From positions 1 through 6,647 of the forward strand of contig JACPHL010000087.1 in NCBI GenBank assembly GCA_016188625.1: a stretch of 6,647 nucleotides of DNA, given 5' to 3'. This stretch comes from Candidatus Rokuibacteriota bacterium. GTDB taxonomy: Bacteria; Methylomirabilota; Methylomirabilia; Rokubacteriales; JACPHL01. The translations under genes and the position numbers were made by a program. The stretch's first letter is position 1, and every line of letters starts with the position of its first letter. Below, in pieces: positions 1-4,790 of the stretch. The notes beneath the pieces were generated by a model. The model did no database searches, was not told the origin of the DNA, and saw only the letters and a program-made list of their open reading frames with translations.

Positions 1-144
1 CACCACTCGATCAAGTTGACCGTGGACACCTACGGCCACCTGATTCCGGGGGCCAACCGGCAGGCCGTGGACCGGCTCGACGATGCGACCGGACGCAACC
101 TCTACGCAACCGCTCCGACCCAGGCGGAGCACTCCGTCAAGTAA
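1..144 (+). CDS. Tyrosine recombinase / phage-type integrase, C-terminal end only
   Basis: Frame 1 is open from the first base to a TAA at 142-144 and encodes 47 residues beginning HHSIKLTVDTYGHLIPGA. This is the C-terminal signature of tyrosine recombinases: the His/Trp position of the LGH box (first visible His), then about ten residues later the nucleophilic Tyr (codon 31-33) in TVDTYGHL. Family members cut and rejoin DNA through this Tyr, in integration, excision or chromosome resolution. The catalytic Arg residues lie off the left edge, so it cannot be told whether the gene is intact or a remnant, nor whether it is an element integrase or a Xer-like housekeeping enzyme; the YGHLIPG style and the extra tail of about 25 residues are more usual in element integrases. 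No tRNA gene or attachment repeat is visible in the 90 bases after the stop. Confidence 0.85.
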   Translation, partial: HHSIKLTVDTYGHLIPGANRQAVDRLDDATGRNLYATAPTQAEHSVK

Positions 145-175
145 TCCCGTCACTTCCGCCCACCCGGCGACGATC

Positions 176-184
176 TGCTATAAT
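176..184 (+). promoter_or_regulatory. Extended -10 promoter for the permease/quinone cluster
   Basis: A perfect sigma-70 -10 hexamer TATAAT (179-184) is preceded by the extended -10 TG at the correct spacing, giving TGCTATAAT. AT-rich hexamers are rare in this GC-rich window, so chance is unlikely. The -35 is poor (TTCCGC at 154-159, 19-bp spacer), which fits a promoter relying on the extended -10. Transcription would begin near 190-192, leaving a leader of about 45 nt before the permease ATG at 236. Confidence 0.7.
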
Positions 185-235
185 GCCCCCGATCCGGAAC
201 CCCCTGGCCCATCCACCGCGCGACGGGAGAGCCCC

Positions 236-727
236 ATGGACGTCTCGACCCTCATCATGGTGACGCTGGCCGCGGCCGCGACCCTGGCGGCGTACCTCCG
301 GGATCCCGGTCTGCCGCTCCTCGGGCTCAAGACCGGGCTCCAGCTCTTCTGGTTCATCTTCCCCCGACTCCTCGCCGCCCTGATCCTGACCGGTATGCTC
401 CAGGTGTTAGTCTCGCCGGAGCTGGTGAGCCGCTGGCTCGGCCGCGAGGCCGGCGTCCGCGGGATCCTCCTCGGGTTCGTGGCGGGGATCCTGACCCCCG
501 GCGGGCCCATGGTGAGCTTCCCGATCGTGGCGGTCTTCTACCAGTCCGGGGCCGCCCTCTCCGCGCTGGTGGCCTACGTGACGAGCTGGTCGCTCTTCGG
601 CTTCCAGCGGGTGCTGGTGTGGGAGCTCCCCTTCATGGGCGGGCCCTTCGTCCTGGCGCGAGTCCTCCCCACCCTCGCGGTCCCCATCCTGGCCGGCCTC
701 CTGGTGAGGCTGGTCTACCACGAGTAG
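236..727 (+). CDS. Small half-size permease (ArsP/YraQ, DUF318-like)
   Basis: A 163-residue, very hydrophobic inner-membrane protein. Likely membrane spans are residues 3-21, 35-59, 74-90, 92-118 and 138-160. The centre carries GILTPGGPMVSFPIVAVFYQSGA (split here as GILTPGGPMV, residues 84-93, then SFPIVAVFYQSGA, 94-106), which matches the layout of the permease family containing ArsP and YraQ, where a Pro-rich re-entrant motif precedes a short basic/polar turn. The usual CxC pair of that motif is replaced by TPGGP, and full-length relatives have about 300 residues, so this is one half and may act as a dimer. The ATG at 236 is chosen because GGGAG (225-229) sits 6 nt upstream and the strong -10 at 179-184 excludes the longer frame opening at 83. 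It is first in the cluster, 4 nt before the decarboxylase. Substrate is unknown. The family call is from recalled motif resemblance. Confidence 0.65.
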   Translation: MDVSTLIMVTLAAAATLAAYLRDPGLPLLGLKTGLQLFWFIFPRLLAALILTGMLQVLVSPELVSRWLGREAGVRGILLGFVAGILTPGGPMVSFPIVAVFYQSGAALSALVAYVTSWSLFGFQRVLVWELPFMGGPFVLARVLPTLAVPILAGLLVRLVYHE

Positions 728-731
728 GGCG

Positions 732-1508
732 GTGGCCTTCGACGACCTCCACGAGCTCATGGCGCACCTCGAAACGCGGGGCCAGCTCCGCCGGATCAGC
801 GTCCCGGTCCGGCGGGAGCTGGAGATCGCCGAGATCGCCGACCGGGTGGTCAAGGGCCCGGCCGCGGGGAACCTCGCCCTCCTCTTCGAGCGGGTGGAGG
901 GGTGCTCGATGCCGCTCCTCATCAACACCTTCGGGACCGCCCAGCGGACGGCCTGGGCCCTGGGCGTGGAGGAGCTGGACGAGCTGGGGGCCCGGGTCGC
1001 CAAGCTGCTTGACCTCCGGATGCCCGGCTCACTCTTCGACAAGTTCCGGAAGCTCGGCGACCTCTTCGGGGTGGCCAAGGCGGGGCCCAAGCTCGTCCGC
1101 TCGGCCCCCTGCCAGGAGGTGGTGGAGACCGAGCGCCCCTCGCTCGAGGGGCTCCCGATCCTCTGGTGCTGGCCGCAGGACGCGGGCTACTACATCACCT
1201 TCCCGCTCGTCATCACCCGCGCCCCCGAGACCGGCCAGCGCAACGTGGGGACCTACCGTCTCCAGGTCTTCGACGACCGGACCCTCGGGATGCACTGGCA
1301 GACCCACAAGGGCGGGGCCGAGCACGAGCGCGAGGCCCGGCGCCTGGGCCGGGAGCGGATCGAGGTCGCCATCGCCCTCGGGGCGGACCCCGCGCTGATG
1401 TACGCCGGGACGGCGCCGCTCCCGCCGGGGGTGGACGAGGTGGTCTTCGCGGGCTGGCTCCGGGGGAAGGGGGTGGAGCTGGTCAAGGCGAAGAGCGTGG
1501 ACCTGTAG
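732..1508 (+). CDS. UbiD-family decarboxylase (MqnL-like), N-terminal part up to an in-frame amber codon
   Basis: This is the first 258 codons of a prenyl-FMN-dependent UbiD-family (de)carboxylase, which would remove the ring carboxyl from a menaquinone (MqnL) or ubiquinone precursor in the cytosol. Family landmarks are present: MAFDDLHEL and ELEIAEIADRV at the start, APCQEVV, and the cofactor/metal region NVGTYR (N171, R176) with GMHWQTHKGG (H188, H192) and then VEL (E249). By comparison with fungal Fdc1 these correspond to the Asn/His/Glu ligands of the metal-phosphate site and the catalytic Arg. Start GTG 732 follows the permease stop by 4 nt and gives the family's normal N-terminus; no clear Shine-Dalgarno sequence is seen. 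The frame stops at TAG 1506-1508 within what should read VDL-E-VPAxAEIVLEG, then continues uninterrupted to 2192. On its own this fragment lacks the C-terminal half and the catalytic glutamates, so it is probably inactive unless the codon is a sequencing error or is read through. Confidence 0.85.
   Translation: MAFDDLHELMAHLETRGQLRRISVPVRRELEIAEIADRVVKGPAAGNLALLFERVEGCSMPLLINTFGTAQRTAWALGVEELDELGARVAKLLDLRMPGSLFDKFRKLGDLFGVAKAGPKLVRSAPCQEVVETERPSLEGLPILWCWPQDAGYYITFPLVITRAPETGQRNVGTYRLQVFDDRTLGMHWQTHKGGAEHEREARRLGRERIEVAIALGADPALMYAGTAPLPPGVDEVVFAGWLRGKGVELVKAKSVDL
1506..1508 (+). other. In-frame amber codon interrupting the UbiD/MqnL reading frame
   Basis: The sequence GTG GAC CTG TAG GTC CCC GCC shows a stop exactly where UbiD relatives, as I recall them, have Glu (DLEVPA in E. 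coli UbiD and in MqnL-type enzymes). GAG to TAG is a single-base change. Both flanks are in the same frame and align with the family without gap, giving a total of 486 positions, a normal UbiD length. The permease gene just upstream uses TAG as its terminal codon, which argues against genome-wide reassignment of TAG. Confidence 0.9.
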
Positions 1509-1529
1509 GTCCCCGCCCGCGCCGAGATC

Positions 1530-2192
1530 GTGCTGGAGGGGTACGTGGACCCGGCCGAGCAGCGGATCGAAGGCCCCTTCGGCGACCACACCGGCTACTA
1601 CTCCCTGCCCGTCGAGTACCCGGTCTTCCACCTGACCGCGGTGACCCGCCGCCGCGAGCCGCTCTACCCCACCATCATCGTGGGCCGGCCGCCCATGGAG
1701 GACTACTGGCTCGGGAAGGCGACCGAGCGGCTCTTCCTCCCCATCATCCGGATGGTCCTCCCCGAGGTCGTGGACATGAACATGCCCGCGGAGGGGGTCT
1801 TCCACAACCTGGTGATCGTCGCGGTGCGGAAGCGCTACCCCGGCCAGGTGCGGAAGGTGATGTACGGGCTCTGGGGGCTCGGGCTCCTGATGCTCGCGAA
1901 GAACATCCTGGTGGTGGACGAGTGGGTGAACGTCCACGACCTCTCCGAGGTCACCTGGCGGGTCACCAACAACATCGACCCGGCCCGGGACCTCGTGCTC
2001 GTCGAGGGGCCGATGGACGACCTCGACCACGCCGCGCTCCGGCACCGATACGGCGGCAAGCTCGGGATCGACGCCACCGAGAAGCGCGCGCCGCTGGATC
2101 AGGTGGGCCAGTCCTGGCCGGAGGAGATCCGCATGTCCGAGGAGATCCGGCGCCGCGTCACCGAGCGCTGGCGCGAGTACGGCCTCGGCTAA
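1530..2192 (+). CDS. UbiD-family decarboxylase (MqnL-like), C-terminal part after the amber codon
   Basis: Continuation of the same gene and frame as 732-1508; coding similarity actually resumes at 1509 (VPARAEIVLEG). GTG 1530 (the V of EIVLEG) is merely the first possible start codon after the stop, with no Shine-Dalgarno sequence, so independent translation is doubtful. The stretch carries the downstream UbiD landmarks: the AEIVLEG segment, EGPFGDHTGYYS, GRPPMEDYW, PAEGVFHNLVI, RKRYPGQVRKVMYGLW, VDEWVNVHD, NNIDPARDLVLVEGP and the closing GIDATEK. The glutamates of AEIVLEG are, by homology, in the region of the catalytic Glu residues. GRPPMEDYW and GVFHNLVIV are more like the menaquinone-route MqnL proteins than E. 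coli UbiD. No further frameshift or stop is seen, so the lesion is recent or artefactual. The TAA at 2190-2192 is followed 24 nt later by the prenyltransferase. Confidence 0.8.
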   Translation: MLEGYVDPAEQRIEGPFGDHTGYYSLPVEYPVFHLTAVTRRREPLYPTIIVGRPPMEDYWLGKATERLFLPIIRMVLPEVVDMNMPAEGVFHNLVIVAVRKRYPGQVRKVMYGLWGLGLLMLAKNILVVDEWVNVHDLSEVTWRVTNNIDPARDLVLVEGPMDDLDHAALRHRYGGKLGIDATEKRAPLDQVGQSWPEEIRMSEEIRRRVTERWREYGLG

Positions 2193-2216
2193 CCCCTGGG
2201 CGACGCGCGCCCCCCG

Positions 2217-3065
2217 ATGGGCAAGCCCCGCCACTTCCTCGAGGCGATCAAGGTCGAGCACACCGTCTTCGCCCTCCCCTTCGCCTACATCGGGATGGTC
2301 CTCGCGGCCGGGGGGTGGCCGGGGTGGCGGATCTTCTTCTGGATCACCGTCGCCATGGTCGCGGCCCGGACCCTGGCGATGAGCGCGAACCGCCTGGTGG
2401 ACCGCCACCTCGACGCCCGGAACCCGCGCACCGCCGGCCGCCACCTCCCCCGCGGGCTCCTGGCCGCGCGCGACCTCCTCCTCGCCGCCGCGGGCTCGGC
2501 GGCCCTCCTCCTCGTCGCCGCCTGGCGGCTCAACCCCCTCTGCCTGGCCCTGGCGCCGGTCGCCATCCTCTTCCTGGTCGGGTACTCCTACACCAAGTTC
2601 TTCACCTGGACCTCCCACTGGATCCTGGGGCTCACCGACGGTGCCGCCGCGGCCGGGGCGTGGATCGCGGTCCGGGGACGGCTCGACCCGCCGGCGCTCC
2701 TGCTCTGGCTCGCGGTCACGGTCTGGATCGCCGGCTTCGACCTCCTCTACGCCTGCCAGGACGTCGAGTTCGACCGTCGGGAGCGCCTCCACGCCGTCCC
2801 GGCCCGCTTCGGGGTGGCGACCGCCCTCCGCTGGGCGCGCTACTGCCACCTCCTGACCGCGGCCGCCCTGGCCGCCGTCGGCTGGGTCATGGGGCTGGGG
2901 ATCGGCTACTGGCTCGGGTGGCTCGCCGTGGTGGGGCTCCTGGTCTACGAGCACTCCCTGATCTCCCCCGATGACCTCTCCCGGCTCGACGTCGCCTTCT
3001 TCAACATTAACGGCTACATCAGCCTGATCACCTTCGCCGCCACGCTCGTGGGGCTCTACTTCTGA
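2217..3065 (+). CDS. UbiA-family aromatic prenyltransferase (menaquinone MqnP-like)
   Basis: A 282-residue integral membrane enzyme that would attach the polyprenyl tail to the aromatic ring of a quinone precursor. Both Asp-rich diphosphate/Mg motifs are present: N58-x3-D62-x3-D66 (NRLVDRHLD), running into NPRTAGRHLPRG (69-80), and a second site with D175, Y178, QD 181-182 and D186 (YACQDVEFDRR). About eight to nine hydrophobic spans fill the remainder, and the length is normal for the family. The N-terminus IKVEHTVFALPFA is the usual UbiA opening, which supports ATG 2217 although no Shine-Dalgarno sequence is visible; translation is probably coupled to the decarboxylase gene 24 nt upstream. 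Neighbouring UbiD- and UbiE-like genes place it in quinone synthesis. The futalosine-pathway role (MqnP) rather than 4-hydroxybenzoate prenylation is inferred from the MqnL-like neighbour and the QDVEFDRRERLHAVPARFG style. Confidence 0.9.
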   Translation: MGKPRHFLEAIKVEHTVFALPFAYIGMVLAAGGWPGWRIFFWITVAMVAARTLAMSANRLVDRHLDARNPRTAGRHLPRGLLAARDLLLAAAGSAALLLVAAWRLNPLCLALAPVAILFLVGYSYTKFFTWTSHWILGLTDGAAAAGAWIAVRGRLDPPALLLWLAVTVWIAGFDLLYACQDVEFDRRERLHAVPARFGVATALRWARYCHLLTAAALAAVGWVMGLGIGYWLGWLAVVGLLVYEHSLISPDDLSRLDVAFFNINGYISLITFAATLVGLYF

Positions 3066-3115
3066 GCGACGCGCGGCTCGGCCAGGGGCGCGACAAGGCC
3101 CGGGAGGTCCGGGCC

Positions 3116-3784
3116 ATGTTCGGCCGGATCGCCCACCGCTACGACCTGATGAACGCCCTGATGACCGGGGGGCGGCACCAGGCGTGGCGGCGGGTCGCGG
3201 CGCGCTTGGCCTGCGCGGAGTCCGGGCTCCTGGCCCTCGACGTGGCCACCGGGACGGCCGACCTCGCCCTCGCCCTCGTCGAGACCGGCCGGGCGCGCGC
3301 CGTGGTGGGGCTCGACTTCGTCGAGCCGATGCTGGGGCTGGCGCAGGCCAAGCTCGCCCGCCGGGCGGCCGGGACCCGCGTCCGGCTCGTGGCCGGCGAC
3401 GCCTTGGCCCTGCCGTTCCCCGAGGGGACCTTCGGGTGCGTCGCCTCGGCGTTCCTCCTCCGGAACCTCGCCGACCTCCGGGCGGGCCTGGCCGAGATGC
3501 GCCGGGTGACGGCGCCCGGCGGCCGGGTGGTCGCCCTCGAGATCGCCCAGCCAACCCTCCCGGGGTTCCGCGCGCTCTTCCGGGCCTACTTCCACCGCGT
3601 CGTCCCCTGGCTCGGAGGCCTGATCAGCGGGGACCGGGACGCCTACACCTACCTCCCCCGCTCGGTCGAGGACTTCCTCCCTCCCGAGGGCCTGGCGGCG
3701 CTGATGCGCGAGGTGGGACTCCGGGAGGTCGGCGTCCGGCGGCTCGGGCTCGGCACGGTCACGATCCACGTGGGGGTCGCCTGA
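3116..3784 (+). CDS. ubiE: UbiE/MenG quinone C-methyltransferase
   Basis: An AdoMet-dependent class I methyltransferase that adds the ring methyl to demethylmenaquinone (or a ubiquinone intermediate), the last step after prenylation. Residues counted from ATG 3116: MFGRIAHRYDLMN (1-13, the UbiE N-terminal signature), motif I LDVATGTADLAL with D42, post-I acidic GLDFVEPML with D67, GDALALPF with D95, then SAFLLRNLAD, and YTYLPRSVEDF near the C-terminus. At 222 residues it is slightly short. In-frame codons 3062-3115 encode SDARLGQGRDKAREVRA, typical of the residues that precede MFGRIA in relatives, but their only start candidate is CTG 3062, which overlaps the prenyltransferase TGA. The true start may therefore be CTG 3062. 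It closes the tight cluster; whether the product is menaquinone or ubiquinone is inferred, not shown. Confidence 0.9.
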   Translation: MFGRIAHRYDLMNALMTGGRHQAWRRVAARLACAESGLLALDVATGTADLALALVETGRARAVVGLDFVEPMLGLAQAKLARRAAGTRVRLVAGDALALPFPEGTFGCVASAFLLRNLADLRAGLAEMRRVTAPGGRVVALEIAQPTLPGFRALFRAYFHRVVPWLGGLISGDRDAYTYLPRSVEDFLPPEGLAALMREVGLREVGVRRLGLGTVTIHVGVA

Positions 3785-3878: not shown

Positions 3879-4520
3879 ATGGCCGCCCCCTACCGCCTCG
3901 AGCCGAGGCCCGGCCGGATCAGCCCGCGGCTGATCCTCCGGCTCCAGCGCTACCGGGACCTCTCCCAGGTCCCGCCCCCCATCGTGGAGGTCGCCGAGGC
4001 GATGGCCCGGCTCGCCGAGCGGCTGGTGGAGCCGCGCGCCCTCGTCCTCCCGGTCCCCATCGCGGCCGTCGAGGCCGAGGAGGTCCGGCTCGCGGACGGA
4101 CCGACCTTCCACAGCCGGGCCCTGGCCTCGATGCTCCGCTCCTCGGAGCAGGCCGTCCTCTTCCTCCTGACCCTCGGGCCCCGCCTCGAGGCCGAGGTCA
4201 GCGCCCGCTCCGAGGCCAAGGAGCTCCTGGAGGCGGTCCTGCTCGATACCGCGGGGTGGGTGGCGATCGAAGGGGGGGTGCGGGCGCTCCGCGCCCATCT
4301 GCGGGAGTGCTGGCGGGCCGCCGGTCGGGGCGTGACCCACCGCCTGGCGCCGGGCTATCTCGACTGGCCCCTCGCGGAGCAGGCGCTCCTGTTCCGGCGC
4401 TTCGGGGGCGCCAACGACCTCGTCCGGCTGACCGGGAGCGGCGTCATGGTGCCACTCAAGTCGATCTCGGGCCTCTACGGCGTCTTCCCGCTCGGCGACT
4501 GCCCCCGGCCGGGGCGCTGA
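3879..4520 (+). CDS. Stand-alone MetH activation-domain-like protein (AdoMet-binding fold)
   Basis: A 213-residue soluble protein whose C-terminal half matches the reactivation domain of cobalamin-dependent methionine synthase (family PF02965). Visible landmarks are HRLAPGYLDWPLAEQ (R155, G159, Y160), equivalent to the RxAPGYPACP AdoMet-binding loop of MetH, and LTGSGVMVPLKSISGLYG (residues around 184-201, K194, S195, S197), equivalent to LTESFAMWPGASVSGWYF. Upstream, FHSRALASMLRSSEQAVLFLLTLGPRLE and the LLDTAGWVAIE segment fit the family's core. The cobalamin, folate and homocysteine modules of MetH are absent, so it cannot be a methionine synthase; stand-alone relatives are thought to reactivate or partner corrinoid proteins, but the role here is unknown. 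A single Cys near the end (GDCPRPGR) is shared with some stand-alone forms. No methyltransferase or corrinoid-protein gene is in view. It follows ubiE by 94 nt. Confidence 0.75.
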   Translation: MAAPYRLEPRPGRISPRLILRLQRYRDLSQVPPPIVEVAEAMARLAERLVEPRALVLPVPIAAVEAEEVRLADGPTFHSRALASMLRSSEQAVLFLLTLGPRLEAEVSARSEAKELLEAVLLDTAGWVAIEGGVRALRAHLRECWRAAGRGVTHRLAPGYLDWPLAEQALLFRRFGGANDLVRLTGSGVMVPLKSISGLYGVFPLGDCPRPGR

Positions 4521-4538: not shown

Positions 4539-4790
4539 TCACCGGAACGCGACCCGCCGGCGGCGGGGCCTCTCGACCTGCTGCCCCTCCTCCACGGGCA
4601 GGAAGTGGCGGACCGTGAAGCCGCAGCGCGCGCACCGCCGGTAGTAGAAGCGCCTGCCCCGGTCCTCGTGGATGCCCCCCACCCGCTCCATCCGGCTCCC
4701 GCAGCACGGGCCGGGGCGGGTCGGGGAGACCAGGGCGGCGCGCTCGGCGACCGCTCGCTTCGCGTCGTCGTAAATCACCGTCAGCGGCAT
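4539..4790 (-). CDS. Small Cys-rich, zinc-ribbon-like protein of unknown function
   Basis: An 83-residue basic protein on the minus strand, starting at ATG 4788-4790 and ending in TGA 4539-4541, only 18 nt from the convergent gene's stop. It is supported as real by a strong Shine-Dalgarno sequence (AAAGGAGA on the minus strand, plus positions 4799-4806) about 8 nt before the ATG. Residues: MPLTVIYDDAKRAVAERAAL (1-20, amphipathic), then PCCGSRM with C29 and C30, a 22-residue spacer containing RRFYYRR, then CARCGFTVRHFLP with C53 and C56, and a basic tail VERPRRRRVAFR. The second knuckle is a normal zinc-ribbon CxxC(G); the first is an adjacent Cys pair rather than CxxC, so tetrahedral metal binding is plausible but not certain. 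I do not recognise the family. A nucleic-acid-binding role is suggested only by charge and fold type. Confidence 0.7.
   Translation of the reverse strand: MPLTVIYDDAKRAVAERAALVSPTRPGPCCGSRMERVGGIHEDRGRRFYYRRCARCGFTVRHFLPVEEGQQVERPRRRRVAFR

Follow-up and report, generated by a model that had tools for sequence, protein, structure and literature searches.

MqnL, MqnM, and MqnP co-occur with the futalosine pathway (PMC4746308), and members of the UbiD family share a conserved E(D)-R-E network (PMC8988006). The window analyzed here, which is an entire contig (C211) of 6,647 bases, belongs to a Rokubacteria-like MAG of 2.60 Mb in 344 contigs that is 84% complete, and it carries a UbiD-family menaquinone decarboxylase gene that is interrupted once (Table 1). 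The closest named relatives of this mqnL gene were found in Candidatus Rokubacteria MAGs. The nearest whole genome, referred to here as G003, shares the order of the window but falls in a different family and is 82% identical to it over mqnL. A search of the literature on Rokubacteria futalosine genes and on in-frame stops in MAGs found nothing.

Table 1. Coordinates of the features in the window, with the profile matches on which they rest
Feature	Position	Strand	Evidence or remark
ORF, weak ArsP-type permease match	83..727	+	PF03773 28.9 bits, below cut-off
mqnL/UbiD-family menaquinone decarboxylase gene, one interruption	732..2192	+	TIGR03701, PF20695, PF01977, PF20696
In-frame TAG, codon 259 of 486	1506..1508	+	Mostly Glu in relatives
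MqnP-like UbiA-family prenyltransferase, intact	2217..3065	+	NF041586 376 bits (below 430 cut-off), PF01040 174 bits
UbiE/MenG-type methyltransferase, intact	3116..3784	+	TIGR01934 202 bits, PF01209 186 bits

The frame of mqnL started with GTG, stopped with TAA, and was open apart from the TAG; one codon was affected, and there was no frameshift. The preliminary description had read this frame as continuous except for the TAG over 486 positions, with both sides aligning without loss, and the frame check and profile searches agreed on both points. When read through the TAG, the product matched TIGR03701 (menaquinone biosynthesis decarboxylase, MqnL) with 601.7 bits, above the cut-off of 495.9, over profile positions 2-433 of 433 and with no gap at the stop, and it contained all three of the UbiD Pfam domains. 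Each half searched singly fell below the TIGR03701 cut-off (295 and 287 bits), and the halves met at profile positions 248 and 250 without loss. The gene co-occurs with mqnP and other mqn genes, and the same gene order was found in G003, where mqnL was uninterrupted. Two strong PF02621 (MqnA/MqnD-type) matches were located in intact genes on contig C164 of the same genome, and the menaquinone pathway therefore appears to be in use; UbiX-type flavoproteins (PF02441) were found on C144, C134, and C128. These results demonstrate that the interrupted gene is an ordinary mqnL, encoding a decarboxylase of the UbiD family from the late futalosine pathway to menaquinone, and its homology to the UbiD family is not in doubt.

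The ORF preceding mqnL was conserved in G003, where its homologue ended at the same place with TGA; in the window it closed with a TAG at 725-727 that served as an ordinary stop, and its translation probably begins later than position 83, near 235. The beginning of the window (1-144) resembles the C-terminal end of a tyrosine recombinase, 47 amino acids long and without a Pfam match, and in G003 (L134, contig C210) a phage-type integrase (PF00589) and tRNA-Gln/tRNA-Glu genes lay just upstream of the quinone operon. The two regions are possibly a shared integration site. Downstream of the operon, small ORFs at 3879-4520 on the plus strand and 4539-4790 on the minus strand had no Pfam or NCBIfam matches; the paired cysteines of the second (CC and CxxC) suggest a zinc-ribbon-like protein.

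The site of the stop was then compared across 101 non-window sequences, including 2 distant paralogues from the same genome. Glu, encoded by GAG or GAA, was present in 84 of the 101, the other residues were Met, Gln, Tyr, Asp, Leu, Arg, Phe, and Lys, and none of the sequences had a stop, which bears out the earlier statement that relatives carry Glu, one base away from TAG, at this place. An order-wide survey found mqnL in 55 of 60 genomes, with an internal stop in the window copy only. A search of this genome for a second intact ubiD/mqnL, proposed in the preliminary description, yielded no orthologous copy and only two other UbiD proteins, both encoded on C134 and approximately 29% identical to the mqnL product, which are distant paralogues. 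Constraint was measured by comparing the window with G003 against 20 outgroups. Between 17 and 32 lineage-specific amino acid changes were counted for the window versus 32 to 46 for G003, the window value being lower with every outgroup, and departures from invariant columns, the stop excepted, numbered 3 of 204 in the window versus 5 of 206 in G003. The dN/dS ratio of mqnL relative to G003 was 0.24 for the whole gene, with 0.30 for the part preceding the stop and 0.17 for the part following it. Neither the relaxed constraint nor the further lesions of a pseudogene were found in mqnL, a result still compatible with a very recent lesion. A long-dead mqnL was rejected, since its constraint pattern would differ. 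Because mqnL bears no trace of decay, the organism either lacks the stop or acquired it very recently.

Other breaks were found in the same assembly. A codon-usage scan of 544 kb of sampled genome stretches detected 21 stops flanked on both sides by coding-like sequence. Most of these were judged from their junctions to be neighboring genes in one frame rather than internal stops, among them a candidate on C37 in which a carboxyltransferase-domain gene continued the frame of a D-glutamate cyclase gene. The 21 also included one TAA in prcA and one TGA at an AhpD-type Cys position. The TAA interrupted the proteasome alpha subunit gene (TIGR03691; L188/L195, G000:C93:19570-20250) at codon 89, and prcA was uninterrupted in 17 relatives. 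The bases read GGG GAC ATG TAA versus GGC TAC TCC TAC in G003, with conserved flanking codons, so that six changes fell within twelve bases of a conserved stretch, a cluster present in none of the compared relatives. Judging from this alignment, the prcA break looks like a local consensus error of assembly or base-calling. In a branched-chain amino-acid transporter locus (L133, C160, approximately 1109-3585), the reading frame of livM shifted, and livG contained a TAG at 2449. Matches to short-chain dehydrogenases were interrupted in 0 of 20 cases, and those to ABC domains in 1 of 68. As a separate observation, an AhpD-like gene (PF02627; L150, C110, 4641-4054, minus strand) had TGA at the second Cys of its CxxC motif (CHY-TGA-VRFH), a stem-loop was predicted shortly 3' of this TGA (z -1.7), and a SelB match above its cut-off was located on C273 of the same genome. 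AhpD-like 2 selenoproteins are a known kind (PMC2398784), and this gene probably encodes one.

The preliminary description had offered a sequencing error, a very recent nonsense mutation, or stop-codon readthrough as explanations for the TAG in mqnL; the first two held up, and readthrough received no positive support. Translation through the TAG, by means of a suppressor tRNA, pyrrolysine, or a leaky context, would give a full-length enzyme, and the well-conserved frame downstream is consistent with this, as is the presence of Gln, Tyr, Met, Leu, and others at the site in distant relatives, which suggests that any of several residues inserted at the TAG might be tolerated. We nevertheless consider it very improbable. 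The genes for both release factors, PVT (RF1 type) and SPF (RF2 type), were present and open; the coding-like ORFs in the 544 kb (n = 392) ended with TGA in 257 cases, TAG in 105, and TAA in 30; the stop was common to no relative; and the other breaks in the assembly include TAA besides TAG. A suppressor tRNA(CUA) or pyrrolysine machinery, for which a search had been recommended, did not emerge: the 29 recovered tRNA genes, an incomplete set from an incomplete MAG, included no CUA anticodon, and PF01409 gave no match that could be assigned to PylS, its matches consisting of one contig-edge fragment that covered the C-terminal 59 family positions only and two marginal ones. Recoding of TAG was thus set aside as unlikely on the basis of release factors, tRNAs, PylRS-type synthetases, stop usage, and the other in-frame stops. 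TAG as a normal stop in the standard code fits all of these data, with a small opening left by the incompleteness of the bin. That a true TAG is combined with full-length MqnL through programmed or suppressor readthrough, with the machinery encoded in the unrecovered portion of the genome, we rate as slighter still; if true, an uncultured phylum would supply a new example of stop readthrough, but nothing here favors it. Least credible of all, and likewise lacking positive support, is a split gene, in which two polypeptides would form one enzyme and the second would be started in frame, for example at the GTG at 1530. An ORF started by this GTG (1530-2192) exists mechanically, but the earliest possible start lies 21 bases past the stop, where the domain is conserved, the break is inside PF01977, and no relative is split at this site.

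The explanation that we favor, with modest confidence, is that the TAG is a consensus error (base-calling or assembly) of a fragmentary metagenome assembly; the organism itself would then probably have a full-length mqnL frame, and the erroneous base is one that we infer. A consensus error is likeliest because an apparently needed, fully constrained, single-copy mqnL is broken in one fragmentary assembly only, and because the same assembly contains at least one further break that looks like an error, in prcA, besides the livM/livG locus. Against it, the change in mqnL is an isolated single substitution, unlike the cluster in prcA. This isolation, in a contig whose other genes are open, counts toward a genuine nonsense allele of very recent origin, whether fixed or segregating in the population, as do the single base that separates TAG from the GAG of relatives and the existence of further broken genes in the genome such as livM/livG. 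Such an allele would inactivate mqnL, leaving a truncated product of 258 residues that lacks E280, D285, and the C-terminal domain. We rank it after consensus error, as a serious possibility whose chances are nonetheless below even: mqnL has no sign of decay elsewhere, no orthologous second copy was found in the genome, and mqnP, menG, and the mqnA/mqnD-type genes are intact. A true mutation of such recent origin would look just like a consensus error here. With a consensus error as the preferred reading, the locus advises caution, in that neither pathway loss nor recoding should be concluded from one in-frame stop in a single fragmentary bin.

Compared with pyrrolysine or suppressor-tRNA recoding, the window is similar in having an in-frame TAG followed by a conserved frame but differs in its intact RF1, in the use of TAG as a common terminator, in relatives that are without the TAG, and in a genome that yielded neither a suppressor tRNA nor a PylRS. 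Its resemblance to MqnL (TIGR03701) extends to the full-length match, the adjoining mqnP and ubiE/menG, and the mqnA/mqnD-type genes elsewhere, and the difference is the TAG at codon 259, which is confined to this assembly. For residue mapping, the product was aligned with E. coli UbiD (PDB 2idb, 5m1d), the source of its known fold. It differs from E. coli UbiD in its context, the Mqn pathway rather than ubiquinone. The alignment covered residues 1-483, and N171, R176, E236, E280, and D285 of the window matched N175, R180, E241, E285, and D290, of which we take N175 and E241 to be metal ligands. The metal-site residues had previously been given as N171, H188/H192, and E249. N171 was retained. 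H192 corresponded to a His (position 196 in E. coli), H188 corresponded to an Arg, and E249 lost its place to E236; E249 was also variable, being E in 14 and P in 7 of 21 close relatives. The earlier expectation that neither half would work alone is upheld by the position of the TAG, which leaves N171, R176, and E236 before it and E280 and D285 after it; judged from these residues, each half should be inactive by itself. The residues of the metal/prFMN site and of the E(D)-R-E network are thus all encoded in mqnL but, as written, are parted into two chains by a TAG that stands at the place of E264 in E. coli UbiD.
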